Of a stretch of 45,981 nucleotides of DNA, positions 2,148 to 29,710 are shown in pieces. Both the position numbers and the translations under genes were made by a program. This DNA comes from a virus, in IMG/VR virus record IMGVR_UViG_3300029989_000046, positions 1-45,981 of that record. One strand, given 5' to 3'. Positions within the stretch are counted from its first letter, which is position 1. Each line of letters begins with the position of its first letter. The notes beneath the pieces were generated by a model, which saw nothing but the letters and a program-made list of their open reading frames with translations, was not told where the DNA came from and did no database searches.

Positions 2148-2810
2148 ATGAGCAGCTCACTTTTCCCAGACCTTACGTGGAGGCAAATCACCTTTACGCC
2201 TGGAACTGCGGACTGGTATAGGATCATGGATGAAACCGGCCCTGGGGGGCAAATCTCTGGGATGTTTCGCCTGTCCGGGTTGGACGGCGGCGGGAAGGCT
2301 TGGAGCGCGATGGTGGTTTTCAATGCGGAGGGTAGCGCGGGGGCTTACTCCACGTTGACTCAACTTTTTTGCACTTCAATTCACGTCGTGGACATTGTTA
2401 GAACGTCATGCGATGGGGCCAGCCACAGCGCGCTAGATATTCACATTGCCACAGGCATGGCAAGTCTTCCGGTTACGGTTGACTTCATGTGCTACACGAA
2501 TAACAATCCAATCACTTCACCGACAGTAGCCACATCGCTGGGAACCGACACTCAGCTTTTCATCAATCAGGCTGGGCTAAGAACCACTGACATGGTTACC
2601 CAGGGGTCAGTCCTCAGCAAAATGCTGAAGACCAATTCTGGGGGAGATTTGATTGCCGCCACAGCTGGAACGGACTACTCCACGCGCGTAACCGTTCCAG
2701 CATCCGCTACGGCGTCCGGGGTTGCCGGTAACTGGGCTGGCGATGCATCCGCATTCTACTACTGTTATTCAACAAATACTTGGAGAAAAATCCTAAGCTC
2801 CACATTCTAA
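2148..2810 (+). CDS. Tail fibre-like protein, paralogue A
   Basis: 220 aa. Its first 130 or so residues align with the next gene: both have W-R-x-x-T-F-x-P, then D-W-Y-R-I-x-D-E-T, then G-G-x-I-x-G and later P-V-T-V-D. The C-terminus (Y-Y-C-Y-S-T-N-T-W-R-K-I) resembles the ends of many phage fibres and spikes, where a short Tyr/Trp motif closes a beta-structured stalk. The start is 3 nt after the upstream stop, so it is co-translated with its neighbour. I infer a receptor-binding or fibre-tip role from location and C-terminus. The tandem pair suggests a duplication followed by divergence of the distal part. Confidence 0.6.
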   Translation: MSSSLFPDLTWRQITFTPGTADWYRIMDETGPGGQISGMFRLSGLDGGGKAWSAMVVFNAEGSAGAYSTLTQLFCTSIHVVDIVRTSCDGASHSALDIHIATGMASLPVTVDFMCYTNNNPITSPTVATSLGTDTQLFINQAGLRTTDMVTQGSVLSKMLKTNSGGDLIAATAGTDYSTRVTVPASATASGVAGNWAGDASAFYYCYSTNTWRKILSSTF

Positions 2811-7539: not shown

Positions 7540-8340
7540 ATGCCGACATTTGGAGTAGAACAAAATAAGGGTCAATCTCGGGAACTCATTCCGGCTGGAT
7601 GCCTGCTGTGGGTTCACGTTCATCCCAAAGAACTCATTAATAGTCAGAATACCGGGGGCGAAATGCTCAATCTGGAACTGACTGTTATTTCTGGAACCTA
7701 CAAGGATCGAAAGATTTTCGTGAACGTCGCCAACATTTTTGATGTCGAGCGGAATAGCGAAAAGTTCCGTGAAATGGCCGCTATCCACCTTCAGCGAGTT
7801 TTTGAAGGTTGCGGCATCTTCCAGCCCCAACATCCCAACAGCTATCAGCAGTTCGACGGAAAGCCGTTCCAGGCTATGATTGATACGCTTCTGAACCTCG
7901 GAAACAATGCCGTTTCTGCCGTTCGGGTTCGCGTTTCGAAGGGGCAGAATGGCTATGAAGACAAGAACGACGTGGAATTTCTTTCCCCCAACCCCAATTC
8001 TAATTCCGCCAAGGATTGGAAAAAGTTGATGGATAGCGGTTCCGCCCAGGAGGTGATTGCGGAAGCCAAGAAATCCGCCGTCCCCCCTACTGCCTCCGCG
8101 CCTGTCCCCGCCGCCTTCGGCGGCTCTCCTGCGGCACAGCCCGCGCAGCCCGCGCAGCCTGGGATTCCTGTGGCCGCGAATGTGTCTACCGGCGTCGGCC
8201 CTGTCGCCGCTGGAACCTATTCCAGCCCGCAGGCTCTCGCGTCTGGACAGCCCCCAATCGCTCCCGGCGCGATCCCGACCCCCGCAGCGGCTCCTGGAGG
8301 CATCCCGCCTTGGGTTTCGCAGGGTAACCCCACCAAGTAA
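7540..8340 (+). CDS. DUF669-type single-stranded DNA-binding protein
   Basis: 266 aa. The N-terminal 150 residues match the DUF669 pattern: L-I-P-A-G near residue 25, a strand with L-N-L-E-L-T-V-I-S-G-T-Y-K-D-R-K, then V-R-V-R-V-S-K-G-Q-N-G-Y-E-D and N-D-V-E-F-L-S-P. DUF669 proteins are usually encoded beside Sak4-type annealing proteins and are thought to act as their SSB. The last 110 residues are a low-complexity Pro/Ala/Gly tail with repeated P-A-Q-P, ending P-P-W-V-S-Q. That resembles the flexible tail of SSBs, though without acidic residues. The neighbouring Sak4-like gene strongly supports the call. Confidence 0.8.
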   Translation: MPTFGVEQNKGQSRELIPAGCLLWVHVHPKELINSQNTGGEMLNLELTVISGTYKDRKIFVNVANIFDVERNSEKFREMAAIHLQRVFEGCGIFQPQHPNSYQQFDGKPFQAMIDTLLNLGNNAVSAVRVRVSKGQNGYEDKNDVEFLSPNPNSNSAKDWKKLMDSGSAQEVIAEAKKSAVPPTASAPVPAAFGGSPAAQPAQPAQPGIPVAANVSTGVGPVAAGTYSSPQALASGQPPIAPGAIPTPAAAPGGIPPWVSQGNPTK

Positions 8341-25446: not shown

Positions 25447-26442
25447 ATGACCGACACCAATACCGCCGCACCGCACAACCCCCTGGCCCTCCCTGGTCAG
25501 AAGATCGTCTCTACCGGCAAGACGAACGCCGTCAAGGACACCAAGGCCCCGGCGCAGCCCGCCAACGCCAGCCGCGACATCGAAAAGCCTTCCCCTGCAA
25601 TCGCCCCTCTTGACCCTAAGAAAGTCGCTGAGGCCAAGGCCCTGAAGGCGAAGCTTGATGCCGCTAAGAAGCCATTGGCCGATAAGCCCAAGGCGGCAAG
25701 AAAACCCAAGCCGGAAGCTAAGAAAAATTCGGCCAAGCCCAAGCCCGAAAAGAAGACGAATGTTTCGAAGAAGGATTCGAAGCCTGAAGCTAAGAAGCCT
25801 GTCGTAAAGTCCACCGAGAAGGCCCCTCGCGCCACCACCAAAATCACTCCGAACCTGACTCCCGAAAAACAGGCCAAGATTGACGAACTGATTCGGGAGC
25901 GAGCGAAGTTCGAAAAGGACTCGAAGGAATACGCTGCGCTCTCCCAGAAGATTCGCGTTCTTCGCAACCCCGAAGGCGTCAAGGAATCGAATGGTAAGCG
26001 GCGGGAGACTCAGAACGAGTGGCTGCGGAACAAGTATGCCACCGATTCCGAGTTCCGGGAGAAGCAGGTGAAGGCGGTTCGCAGTTGGCGGAAGAAGAAC
26101 CCTGATCGCGTGGCTTCCTACAACTCCAAGAGGAAGAAGTCTCCCCAGTTCCGTGGCGCGACGAAGGTTCGCAATACAATCATTGGTGGGCTGAGTCGCC
26201 CAAAGACGAATTGCGGCCCCAAGCGGGACGCAAAGGCGTTCACTGGCCTCGTCGGCTGCACGCGCGAGACGTTCCAGAAGCATATTGAGTCGCAGTTCTC
26301 CAAGGGCATGACCTGGGAGAATAAGGGCGAAAAGTGGACGGTCAGCTTTAAGGCTGAACTCTCCAAGTTCGACCTCACGAAGGAAGAGGAAATGAAGAAG
26401 GCTGCGCATTACAAGAACGTTATCGTTGTTGCCTACGAATAA
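25447..26442 (+). CDS. Histone-H1-like domain fused to a degenerate HNH module
   Basis: 331 aa. Residues 1-135 are a Lys/Ala/Pro-rich tail (repeats such as K-P-E-A-K-K and K-P-K-P-E) like histone H1 or bacterial H1-like nucleoid proteins. Residues 180-331 follow the layout of common phage HNH endonucleases: basic helical repeats with E-F-R-E-K, K-K-N-P-D-R-V, then G-C-T-R-E-T-F-Q-K-H-I-E-S-Q-F and G-M-T-W-E-N, then F-D-L-T-K-E-E-E. Where active relatives have W-H-I-D-H-I, this one has W-T-V-S-F-K (S300, F301), so the catalytic D-H pair is lost. Likely a non-cutting DNA-binding or nucleoid-remodelling protein. Confidence 0.65.
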   Translation: MTDTNTAAPHNPLALPGQKIVSTGKTNAVKDTKAPAQPANASRDIEKPSPAIAPLDPKKVAEAKALKAKLDAAKKPLADKPKAARKPKPEAKKNSAKPKPEKKTNVSKKDSKPEAKKPVVKSTEKAPRATTKITPNLTPEKQAKIDELIRERAKFEKDSKEYAALSQKIRVLRNPEGVKESNGKRRETQNEWLRNKYATDSEFREKQVKAVRSWRKKNPDRVASYNSKRKKSPQFRGATKVRNTIIGGLSRPKTNCGPKRDAKAFTGLVGCTRETFQKHIESQFSKGMTWENKGEKWTVSFKAELSKFDLTKEEEMKKAAHYKNVIVVAYE

Positions 26443-26471
26443 GAAGTAATCTCACCACCACACCACGCACC

Positions 26472-26600
26472 ATGAATAAAAGCACAACTCCGTTCCTTAC
26501 TGAAAAGCAGAAATCCGAAAAGCATATCGAAACCCGAGATAAGGTCAGGAAGCTTTCGGATGAAAATATTCAGACCAAGCCTGCTTATGTCACGCGATAA
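26472..26600 (+). CDS. Small charged protein (42 aa)
   Basis: 42 aa, Lys/Glu/Thr-rich, starting M-N-K-S-T-T-P-F-L-T-E-K. It is preceded by the clearest C/A leader in the window (CACCACCACACCACGCACC) directly before the ATG, which argues that it is translated. The next gene starts 4 nt after its stop. Function unknown. Confidence 0.5.
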   Translation: MNKSTTPFLTEKQKSEKHIETRDKVRKLSDENIQTKPAYVTR

Positions 26601-26604
26601 TAGA

Positions 26605-26823
26605 ATGTGTCGCGTGACGTTCACGCCTCGTCGGCTGACGATTGAGGGTAAGCCAACGGCAGAGGCAACAATGCCGATTCGCTACAACTACCCTGGAGGA
26701 ATGAACCGAAAGGAGTTTCGGATCGCCATGCGAGAGGCCAAGAAAAAGGCCCATCGTCTGGGCCGCATGCTCGATAGCAGGGCTTCGGATGAAGCTGAAT
26801 CTGCCGTCGCAGGAACGAAATAA
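26605..26823 (+). CDS. Small basic protein (72 aa)
   Basis: 72 aa from ATG 26605: a beta-like N-terminus (C-R-V-T-F-T-P-R-R-L-T-I-E-G-K) and a basic helix (R-K-E-F-R-I-A-M-R-E-A-K-K-K-A-H-R-L-G-R). The size and charge would suit nucleic-acid binding. It is the last gene before the 1.07-kb non-coding locus. Confidence 0.5.
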   Translation: MCRVTFTPRRLTIEGKPTAEATMPIRYNYPGGMNRKEFRIAMREAKKKAHRLGRMLDSRASDEAESAVAGTK

Positions 26824-26841
26824 AATTTCTAAAAATTCCTG

Positions 26842-26869
26842 TTGACGTTCGAATACAATTCGGTATGTT
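26842..26869 (+). promoter_or_regulatory. Promoter of the non-coding locus
   Basis: TTGACG (26842-26847), 16 nt, TATGTT (26864-26869). It lies 18 nt after the last accessory gene, and no ORF follows, so it should drive untranslated RNA. Confidence 0.5.
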
Positions 26870-26875
26870 GAATCC

Positions 26876-26985
26876 GACTCGAAGCATTGACGAGTATAAA
26901 ACAGGCGGTCGTAGCTTGCGCGACTTGAAATAGGAATAGAGAAGGTTAACCCCTTCCGAGGACAAGCATAAGGGGTTTTAATTTT
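26876..26985 (+). ncRNA. Candidate small RNA (about 110 nt)
   Basis: It is bounded by the promoter at 26842 and an intrinsic terminator at 26948-26985. Short stems are visible: ACTCG/CGAGT (about 26878-26896) and GTCG/CGAC (about 26909-26925). There is no ORF of note. It may be a stand-alone small RNA or the 5' end of a longer transcript if the terminator leaks. No known family recognised. Confidence 0.45.
26948..26985 (+). terminator. Intrinsic terminator in the non-coding locus
   Basis: AACCCCTT (26948-26955) pairs with AAGGGGTT (26970-26977), 14-nt loop, followed by TTTAATTTTG. Confidence 0.75.
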
Positions 26986-27220
26986 GTTCTTTGTAATTTC
27001 CGTTAGGAAAAAAGTTGGGTATTGCAACGCTGTTTTATCGTGGATGTGATTTGCTCGGTTACTCCAGATATTTTCAGTGGTTAAGACCATCACCCGAATC
27101 CGTAATTGCATAAAAGCGGAATCCAAATCCGTTCAGAGAATGGTTCCCCTTTCCCATTCAAAAGAACTTGTCCTCTCACCGGCACGGACAGCGTAACAAA
27201 TAAGCGGGTTTGATTTGATT

Positions 27221-27334
27221 TAGAGGATGCGACGAGAGGCTAAAGTCGGCTAGGAATGAGAAAACAGCATTCCGTTTTAAAGTATAGGAGTCTTACGGGA
27301 ACACGGTATCGCAGGTTCGAATCCTGCTCCTCTA
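27221..27334 (+). tRNA. tRNA-like element, 114 nt, anticodon unresolved
   Basis: The acceptor stem TAGAGGA (27221-27227) pairs perfectly with TCCTCTA (27328-27334). A D-arm follows: CGAC (27230-27233), loop with AGG, GTCG (27245-27248). The T-arm is canonical: GCAGG, loop TTCGAAT, CCTGC (27311-27327). The middle (27249-27310) is 62 nt, about 24 nt longer than even a long-variable-arm tRNA. It holds GGAATG/CATTCC with a 9-nt loop lacking a proper U33, so no anticodon can be assigned. CCA is not encoded (ACAA follows). It could be a split, degenerate or structural tRNA mimic. Confidence 0.5.
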
Positions 27335-27509
27335 ACAATTTCTGTTCCCGGCGCGATAATGCGTGGAGGGTATCTGGCATGGAGGGAGGCGCGCTGGGAA
27401 CAGATTCGAATTGGTGAAAGTCGTCATGTGAAGATACCTAGGCATAGGAACCGCATGAAAATTCGAATCGACAAGTAACCAGACCTTAGCAAGTCCTGTA
27501 AACTGCTTA

Positions 27510-27548
27510 CCCCTGACCGCCTTGAAGAAAGGCCAGGGGATTTAATTT
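27510..27548 (+). terminator. Terminator-like hairpin
   Basis: CCCCTG (27510-27515) and, after a 3-nt bulge, GCCTT (27519-27523) pair with AAGGC (27529-27533) and CAGGGG (27534-27539). The loop is GAAGA, followed by ATTTAATTT. Confidence 0.65.
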
Positions 27549-27555
27549 CGCAATG

Positions 27556-27844
27556 CGATAACGAATAGTTTGAATACACTATCCAAAAGGTTCCGGTTCC
27601 GTGGGCACCGAAAGAGCGGGCGCACTGTAACGGCGGGCGCGAAAGCCATTAGCCTAACCGGTTTGCCGGGCAACTGTGGTGATTAGGAAGACGACGCGAA
27701 CGTCAACGCCGTGTGTGGCATGGGGTTGCCAACAACCCAAAAAGGTTCCCGTCAGAACGGTCAGACATCATTCCGTCCGTATGGGTCAAAACCGGTAGAA
27801 ATCTGCAATGGTTAATAGCCAAAGCGGAATTTCTACCGGTTTTT
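27556..27844 (+). ncRNA. Second candidate structured RNA
   Basis: A stretch of about 290 nt with stems CGGT/ACCG (27594-27610), CCTAA/TTAGG (27653-27687) enclosing CCGG-TTTG-CCGG, and GGGTT/AACCC (27723-27738). It also has a direct repeat GCGGGCGC (27616 and 27633), and ends in the very strong terminator at 27788-27849. The open frame that crosses it upstream of the tailspike gene has no protein-like features. It might be an independent RNA or a long 5' leader of the tailspike transcript that is stopped at the terminator. Confidence 0.4.
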
Positions 27845-27849
27845 CTTTT
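27788..27849 (+). terminator. Strong intrinsic terminator before the tailspike gene
   Basis: AAAACCGGTAGAAAT (27788-27802) pairs perfectly over 15 bp with ATTTCTACCGGTTTT (27829-27843), with a 26-nt loop and then TCTTTTTC. It isolates the non-coding locus from the tailspike/lysis genes. Confidence 0.85.
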
Positions 27850-27889
27850 TCTTGCGCTAACCTTTTCAGACCGCTTAACTTGCCTCGAC

Positions 27890-29710
27890 ATGAGTGCGGC
27901 ACCTACCCCCTATAATCCGAGTTACAACTTTTCAGGATTCCAGGCGACGAATCCCACTACTCCACTTCCGGCGCAGAAGCTTGATACTGAACTCTATAAC
28001 GTTTCTACGGCGACGAAACAGACGATCACGCGCCTCGCGTTGCTGCAACGAGACGATGGCGTTCTATCTAACGGAATTGTTACTCTCTCTTCGCTCGCTA
28101 CCGACGTTTCCGCGCTGATTTCAACGTCGTTCAATTATCGTGGGGTATGGGTTACGGCCACGCACTACGCCTATAAAGACTTTTGGACTCACCCAACCTC
28201 TGGCACGACTTACGTTGTCACGAATACGGGTGGATATACCTCCCGAGCTACGCCCGCTATGGACATCGCTGCGGGCGACGTTCAGGCATTCGTTACCGGG
28301 AATCCCCCTCCTACTGATGCTGGTGGGATTCCGTATGGACGAGGTTACTATAACGTCCTCGACTTCGGGGCGGCTGGGGATGGCTCCACGGATGACTCTG
28401 CTGCCTTTCAGGCTGCTATCGATGCGGCGGGCTCCTCCCCTACGGCGAAAAGCGTGTTCGTCCCGAACACCAGCGGAGGATATGCATTCGGTTCAACTGT
28501 GTTCATCCCTGGCGGGGTTTACGTCTACGGGTCGAACTACAAGGGCGGCAGGCTCAGCCGAATCAAACCCACGCCATCCAACTCCGATCCATTTTTCCGC
28601 ACTAAGGACTTCGGGGTAACTCGCCAGGGCAAGATGGGGGTGATCGGGTTGACGTTGGACGGTTCCAGCACAACTCTTGTTGCGCTGGACTTTTTCTGCC
28701 AGGAGAGCGTGATTCGCGATTGCTCCATTTACGAGTGCTGGACTTACGGAATAAGAATTGGCGGGATCAATAACGCCACCACTGACGGGCTCGCTCTGAA
28801 CAACTGGATTGAAAACAATTTCATCCATTCCGCTTCAGCGCATTTTTACGACGGAATCCTGTTAGATACCTACGGCGCGGATACTTTCGTTCGTGGTAAT
28901 TATATTGAAAATTGCACGAACTGCGGGATTAGATCCTTCAGCTATAACGATACTATCTGCAACAACCATATCTACAAGGTAACGACCCATTACCGTTCTG
29001 AAACTGCGGCTGACAAGAATATTCTTGGTAACTATTTCGAAAACTGCGATGGAACCAGCGTCGTGTTTGCGGCTGGCGCGTCCGATCTTGGGACTATTGC
29101 CGGATGCCTAATTTCGAACGTGTTTCGTAATGTTAATAAGGGCGGGACTGGCTCCGGGGTCGTGGAGTGCGATACGGCCAATATCGATAATTTGGTTATT
29201 TCTAATAACGTCGTTCGGCGCGATTCGGCAACTAGCTATGCTACCGCCTACTTCGTCTATTTCAATGGCGTTACTCCCACCCGAACGCGAGTTTTTGCGA
29301 ATACCTGGGCGACGGGATGCGTTACGACCAGTGAAGCCAATGTAAAGGGCCTCGGGTATGATTCGGACGGCAGGGGCGGCACGACGGCCCCCTCTATCAC
29401 CGCTGGGACGGGTGCGGGAACCGCCCCTACGGTCAGCGTTACGGGAAATGGCCGTGGTGGGCAAATCAGCATCACGACGGGGACTTCTCCATCTACCGCC
29501 GCAACTATCGCGACGATGACCTATGCGACTGCCTATAGCGCGGCCCCTAGTGCTGTGGTGATTACCCCGGCCAACGCTGCCACGGCGGCTCTCACAAGCG
29601 CGGCACCCTATATCTCAGCTTCCAATGCGGGTAACTTCGTGATGACCAGCAACGCGAGTGCGTTGACGGGTTCAACGGCCTACAAATGGAATTACAGTGT
29701 CATTCCCTAA
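27890..29710 (+). CDS. Tailspike with pectate-lyase-like beta-helix
   Basis: 606 aa from ATG 27890; the open frame before it crosses the terminator and is not coding. Residues 1-140 should form the virion-attachment domain (contains W-V-T-A-T-H-Y-A-Y-K-D-F and T-T-Y-V-V-T-N-T-G-G). At about 155 the hallmark start of a pectate-lyase-3 beta-helix appears: Y-Y-N-V-L-D-F-G-A-A-G-D-G-S-T-D-D-S-A-A-F. It runs through N-x-I-x-N-C rungs to about 470. The end (T-x-V-V-I-T-P-A-N-A-A-T-A, W-N-Y-S-V-I) resembles known spike C-termini. It probably binds and cuts a surface polysaccharide of the host. Confidence 0.88.
   Translation: MSAAPTPYNPSYNFSGFQATNPTTPLPAQKLDTELYNVSTATKQTITRLALLQRDDGVLSNGIVTLSSLATDVSALISTSFNYRGVWVTATHYAYKDFWTHPTSGTTYVVTNTGGYTSRATPAMDIAAGDVQAFVTGNPPPTDAGGIPYGRGYYNVLDFGAAGDGSTDDSAAFQAAIDAAGSSPTAKSVFVPNTSGGYAFGSTVFIPGGVYVYGSNYKGGRLSRIKPTPSNSDPFFRTKDFGVTRQGKMGVIGLTLDGSSTTLVALDFFCQESVIRDCSIYECWTYGIRIGGINNATTDGLALNNWIENNFIHSASAHFYDGILLDTYGADTFVRGNYIENCTNCGIRSFSYNDTICNNHIYKVTTHYRSETAADKNILGNYFENCDGTSVVFAAGASDLGTIAGCLISNVFRNVNKGGTGSGVVECDTANIDNLVISNNVVRRDSATSYATAYFVYFNGVTPTRTRVFANTWATGCVTTSEANVKGLGYDSDGRGGTTAPSITAGTGAGTAPTVSVTGNGRGGQISITTGTSPSTAATIATMTYATAYSAAPSAVVITPANAATAALTSAAPYISASNAGNFVMTSNASALTGSTAYKWNYSVIP

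Follow-up and report, generated by a model that had tools for sequence, protein, structure and literature searches.

The locus at positions 26824–27889 of the 45,981-base virus record analysed here (the window) is a real non-coding locus, and it carries a 114-nucleotide domain that keeps the outer half of a tRNA intact and has no valid anticodon arm. The explanation that we consider most likely, at a little short of an even chance, is that the locus makes a processed, non-decoding tRNA mimic.

The window derives from a podovirus-type phage, with genes for a Sak4-like annealing protein, a helicase and a primase on its left side and genes for a tail spike, an endolysin-like protein, a terminase, a portal and a major head protein on its right side. 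By codon score, positions 26601–27712 together with the 5′ leader of the spike gene make up the longest stretch of the window that has no genes, flanked by small middle genes on one side and by the tail-spike gene on the other. Open reading frames inside the gap score near or below zero on both strands, the single exception being a frame of 27 amino acids, and the longer frames that were tested gave no PHROGs match. A protein gene on either strand was ruled out on these grounds (the 27-residue frame excepted), and the original prediction of a non-coding locus in a tightly packed genome is upheld. A GTG extension of the spike frame to 27713 was rejected owing to its negative score and to the conserved N-terminus, which begins at 27890. 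A temperate-phage attachment site was also rejected, integrase being absent among the proteins scanned (a subset of the open reading frames). The hexamer TTCGAA occurs four times in the locus (26848, 27316, 27405 and 27462), where about 0.5 occurrences are expected from the composition of the window. The features are listed below, with folding-energy z scores computed against dinucleotide shuffles.

26842–26869, plus strand: weak promoter-like site TTGACG-N16-TATGTT, matching nine of 12 consensus bases, a quality of match that chance alone would give about twice in the region
26948–26984, plus strand: possible terminator 1, hairpin AACCCCTT/AAGGGGTT (perfect 8 bp inverted repeat, 14-nucleotide loop) followed by TTTTAATTTT; z of −0.6
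27221–27334, plus strand: tRNA-like domain, 114 nucleotides, with no valid anticodon arm; 16 of 16 stem pairs formed; found by the scan for acceptor, D and T arms and by a covariance model
27253–27273, plus strand: hairpin GGAATG-AGAAAACAG-CATTCC standing in the place of the anticodon arm in the minimum-energy fold and followed by a 37-nucleotide variable region
27341–27404, plus strand: 15 bp stem with 14 of 15 pairs, a 34-nucleotide loop and no U tract, starting six nucleotides past the acceptor stem; z of −5.1
27403–27469, plus strand: second hairpin, closed by the 10 bp inverted repeat GATTCGAATT/AATTCGAATC (27403/27460); z of −2.0
27510–27545, plus strand: possible terminator 2, hairpin CCCCTG..CAGGGG followed by ATTTAATTT, a weak U tract; z of −3.3 to −3.9
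27546–27787, plus strand: third non-coding segment, with no significant structure; z of +1.9 on the plus strand
27788–27853, plus strand: strong intrinsic terminator, 15 bp perfect stem (27788–27802/27829–27843) followed by TTTTTCTTTTT; z of −8.2 to −8.7
27890–29710, plus strand: tail-spike gene (PHROG tail spike, Pfam pectate-lyase-like domain, N-terminus kept in relatives), which bounds the locus and lies outside the RNA

The acceptor stem of the tRNA-like domain (TAGAGGA/TCCTCTA) is paired at all seven positions and can be extended by one T–A pair; T8 and G9 connect it to the D arm (CGAC-GAGAGGCTAAA-GTCG), in which all four stem pairs form. The T arm (GCAGG-TTCGAAT-CCTGC) has five of five stem pairs, and the 3′ strand of the acceptor is followed by an A, CCA not being encoded. 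The elbow nucleotides T8, A14, G15, G18, G19, A21, C48, T54, T55, C56 and A58 (tRNA-Ser numbering) are all present, so that, on a direct reading combined with standard knowledge of tRNA, the tertiary elbow contacts can form. The domain thus has the 7 bp acceptor stem, the D arm, the 5 bp T arm, the TTCRANY loop and the elbow of a canonical tRNA and lacks the anticodon arm of 5 bp with a seven-nucleotide loop; the D and T stems are separated by 62 nucleotides with no valid anticodon loop. Its minimum-energy fold is a cloverleaf in which the third arm has a 6 bp stem and a nine-nucleotide loop. Strict rules for the acceptor, D and T arms, applied to both strands of 1.08 Mb of DNA from this phage and related ones, returned two matches only, this element and a real tRNA-Pro.

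In a rival reading, an insertion or rearrangement within the anticodon loop has recently disrupted a class II tRNA gene and left a functionless pseudogene. The intron mode of ARAGORN, with about two false positives per 1.6 Mb, reads the domain as tRNA-Leu(gag) with a 28-nucleotide insertion. Changes of this kind do occur: in one tRNA gene of near-identical phages the anticodon loop is intact in L175, enlarged by an insertion of about 53 nucleotides in L188 and shortened by a loss of nine nucleotides in L203 and L209. The intron mode, however, gives half of the tRNA-like elements discussed below, unrelated ones among them, arbitrary introns and anticodons whose positions do not agree, and we therefore give the tRNA-Leu(gag) reading little weight and reject a tRNA-Leu with a 28-nucleotide intron. 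The tRNA 'repaired' by removal of the insertion would lack a variable-arm stem. Simple decay is disfavoured because a decaying tRNA should lose pairs in all stems, whereas here all 16 are kept and every outer pair and elbow base is intact; a normal tRNA gene that had lately received an insertion would likewise keep its outer arms. We regard a broken tRNA gene as unlikely, though as the rival to be taken most seriously.

Elements of similar build occur in other viruses. A pattern search of viral contigs, requiring a Ser-type D loop 50–80 nucleotides ahead of a T arm, yielded 53 loci. In about 40 of them the acceptor, D and T stems are complete or almost so and an ordinary anticodon arm is missing; the shared Ser-type loop is no independent evidence of kinship because the search pattern selected for it. 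A subfamily (L160, L165, L177, L178, L179, L181, L184, L186, L187, L193, L195, L198, L206, L207, L208, L211 and L212) shares a D stem followed by TGAC and an H-type pseudoknot, as seen in the 15 examples examined; GATAG is frequent in the first loop, as is AGCCTAT or AGCCAAT ahead of the last strand. Swapping the 5′ and 3′ halves between members weakened the mean pairing energy from −18.8 to −12.3 (nominal p of about 1e-8, from hybrids that are not independent and energies that are simplified). The three tRNA stems of the subfamily also covary strongly, with 93% of cells paired compared with 58% in shuffles and 83 double changes compared with 26.5. Rfam models run on 14 loci matched ordinary tRNAs and a few of the other element types; of the pseudoknotted members in these loci only L184 was matched, weakly, as a tRNA (34.6 bits). 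Among 84,980 bacterial and archaeal species genomes the TGAC form was found in one, a Serratia with neighbour genes like those of the viral contig L195. Beyond near relatives, the tRNA-like elements were found to have no neighbour gene in common.

A covariance model of the outer stems (R1), built from 15 phage tRNA-like elements, scores positions 27221–27334 of the window at 31.4 bits (E of 4.8e-7), with 11 bits at the next best place. Across 578 kb of control loci, nothing exceeded 14.4 bits outside loci already known for tRNAs or tRNA-like elements. Real tRNA-Ser genes score 29–51 bits and non-pseudoknot elements 41–60 bits, so R1 sees the class II outer half and cannot tell mimics from tRNAs. 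In the window element the D stem is not directly followed by TGAC, the alignment instead giving a nine-nucleotide insertion and TGAG. Its best pseudoknot, at −15.2, lies between the mean of the family's own halves (−18.8) and that of the hybrids (−12.3), and no clear pseudoknot was found. Sequence comparison therefore supports a build, in the outer arms, shared with the phage tRNA-like elements; membership in the pseudoknot subfamily is not supported, since TGAC after the D stem and a clear pseudoknot are both missing.

A second group was found in Enterococcus Schiekviruses and EH93P1 (L217 and L218–L225), in which an anticodon-less tRNA-like element of 98–105 nucleotides is kept in 31 phage records. 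It has a long covarying hairpin with a palindromic loop (AGTGCACT, ATTCGCGAAT or ATTCATGAAT) that might serve in dimerisation, and it is mostly unannotated or labelled tRNA-OTHER (e.g. MZ147816). Other forms were also seen. In the 151 kb viral contig L200 a tRNA-like element (2185–2310, minus strand) lies beside a phage-borne permuted tmRNA of the alphaproteobacterial type. Streptococcus phage Javan400 (L088, 1484–1530) has a 47-nucleotide mini element upstream of the terminase genes, consisting of an acceptor stem (TGAGATA/TATCTCA) and a T arm only. The N4-like Escherichia phages L213 (PBM-3) and L214 have a short 'tRNA-OTHER' that adjoins tRNA-Ile and whose anticodon arm is unusual. Anticodon-less phage tRNA mimics form a wider, apparently undescribed set, and a search on anticodon-less phage tRNAs found nothing relevant in the literature covered. 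It is conceivable, and we put it forward tentatively, that the window locus belongs, as a diverged representative, to a class of phage RNA not described before, with a class II outer half and an anticodon arm replaced by a pseudoknot or another fold, which would be non-decoding and act on the host tRNA machinery or on tRNA-targeting defence.

Around the domain, the locus is less structured than originally predicted. The TTGACG-N16-TATGTT site is present, its agreement with the consensus being at the level of chance. All three predicted terminator hairpins were found: that at 27788 is strong, with its 15 bp stem perfect as described, and that at 26948 alone folds near shuffle level. The predicted 15 bp stem at 27341/27390 is there with one pair short, the 10 bp inverted repeat lies where it was placed, and the tRNA-like fold is borne out by the domain described above. 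Dense structure over one ornate 1 kb RNA was not borne out: three segments only, 27338–27405 (z of about −5), 27505–27546 (z of −3.9) and the terminator at 27786–27850 (z of about −8), fold better than shuffles, and the locus minus the last terminator is at shuffle level (z of −0.76). Long-range complementarities of 8–9 nucleotides were discounted, their number being about that expected by chance for 1 kb.

These energies bear on the reading of the locus as a single larger RNA of a new class, comprising the tRNA-like domain, the 15 bp stem, the second hairpin and a terminator, by comparison with GOLLD, whose members sometimes carry tRNAs in the linker (PMC12286853). The two hairpins do come directly after the tRNA-like domain, and about 400 nucleotides of non-coding sequence likewise come after a tRNA-like element in L175 and L188. 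Those downstream regions, however, fold at or near shuffle level, only three hairpins of the window locus exceed shuffles and no homologue was found in which covariation could be followed. A new RNA class at the window locus is possible; a single RNA of this extent we consider quite improbable. In L175, L188, L203 and L209 the non-coding sequence spans 395–440 nucleotides between the tRNA-like element and the tRNA gene of variable anticodon loop, which lies about 500 nucleotides after the element; the L175 sequence differs completely from the others.

No relative was found with a terminase identity above about 53%. In L004 (about 52%), which is among the nearest by this measure, the stretch before the spike gene is also gene-free and holds a tRNA-fMet gene (60 bits) between two terminators, followed by a promoter-like site with TTGACG. 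L003 has sequence matching this slot, minus the tRNA, and in both phages TTGACG lies just ahead of the spike gene. About 0.9 kb of gene-free sequence precedes the spike gene in L020 and L008. Three relatives (L020 near 7560–7640, L008 near 2060–2140 and L032 near 1340–1425) have a conserved promoter-like block, GAAAA.TTT.TCCTACA....GTTC.CTTGC, a short way upstream of the spike start; the window retains of it a CTTGCGC remnant alone, past its terminator. In related phages the slot thus holds promoters, terminators and sometimes a tRNA, with a content that is not conserved. The locus could be an intergenic control region that yields no functional RNA and combines the end of the middle operon, terminators and the leader of the late spike gene. 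The shuffle-like folding of most of the sequence agrees with this, as do the long gene-free stretches of L020 and L008 with their common block near the spike start. Such a region leaves the tRNA-like domain and the stem of 14 out of 15 pairs that follows it unexplained, and we hold it to be improbable.

The original suggestion was a GOLLD or ROOL RNA; in favour of identity with GOLLD, ROOL or OLE, or of close kinship with one of them, are the size of the locus, its phage origin and its tRNA-like element. In an Infernal search of the whole window with all models of Rfam 15 (cmscan), no family matched at the curated gathering thresholds. With permissive filters, GOLLD, ROOL and OLE were all absent from 26400–28200 at E ≤ 10, and the fold is not dense; this assignment is very improbable. 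A riboswitch or another Rfam family was rejected on the same searches. The sole tmRNA match in the permissive search reached 9.9 bits and ARAGORN called neither a tRNA nor a tmRNA at the locus and recognised no tag reading frame, and a tmRNA was rejected. No homologous locus turned up among 50,697 phage records, compared as DNA, or among the 151 viral loci that are related, and no similar RNA in viral contigs with a related terminase, spike or 331-residue protein. The exact T-arm and acceptor string of the element is absent from the viral contigs.

For the non-decoding mimic we count, besides the arm scan, the cloverleaf fold, the R1 score with its controls and the unbroken stem pairs, the tRNA-fMet gene in the corresponding slot of L004, the approximately 40 elements of the same build elsewhere and the 31 Enterococcus records; against it stand the weak promoter, the equal R1 scores of tRNA-Ser and the lack of a homologue among the sequences searched. 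The proposed course of events is as follows. The locus would be a non-coding slot where the middle genes give way to the late ones, and its short transcripts, one or several, would end at the intrinsic terminators. An RNA from about 27000 to 27545 would bear the tRNA-like domain without a decoding end. Host RNase P and RNase Z would probably excise the domain, the CCA-adding enzyme would complete its 3′ end and the product may persist as a stable tRNA mimic. Codon reading is impossible for the domain, and it would therefore act by occupying proteins that grip the outer half of tRNA. Candidate partners are a synthetase that ignores the anticodon (e.g. SerRS), EF-Tu, a tRNA-processing or tRNA-modifying enzyme and a tRNA-targeting defence protein. 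Phages carry many tRNA genes, and annotation drops or mislabels those that have no anticodon. If a set of these genes imitates tRNA by design and never decodes, its members are candidates for inhibitors, decoys or scaffolds, with tRNA synthetases, processing enzymes or tRNA-cutting defence systems as targets. The mimics are small enough for direct testing, and the pseudoknotted subfamily already shows covariation.

Among known systems, GOLLD and ROOL resemble the window locus in being phage-borne, non-coding and tRNA-associated; the locus differs in having no covariance-model match, no dense fold and a few hairpins only. The tmRNAs share a tRNA-like end and the absence of an anticodon, whereas the window element has at most 9.9 bits with the Rfam tmRNA models, no ARAGORN tag frame and a D stem. 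With tRNA-Ser and other class II tRNAs (RF00005) it shares the acceptor, the Ser-type D loop GAGNGGNTNAA, the T arm, the elbow nucleotides and a long central variable part; unlike them, it has 62 nucleotides between the D and T stems, no 5 bp anticodon stem with a seven-nucleotide loop and a D stem longer by one base pair, and it is called by neither ARAGORN nor Rfam. The pseudoknotted phage elements have TGAC and a covarying H-type pseudoknot where the window element has its nine-nucleotide insertion and TGAG with no clear pseudoknot; the outer half, the range of D-to-T spacing, the missing anticodon and the viral genomes are common to both. The 'Undetermined' tRNAs of the Enterococcus Schiekviruses (tRNA-OTHER in MZ147816) differ in their hairpin middle with a palindromic loop and in their position inside a tRNA array, and they share with the window element the combination of a tRNA outer half and a non-decoding middle.
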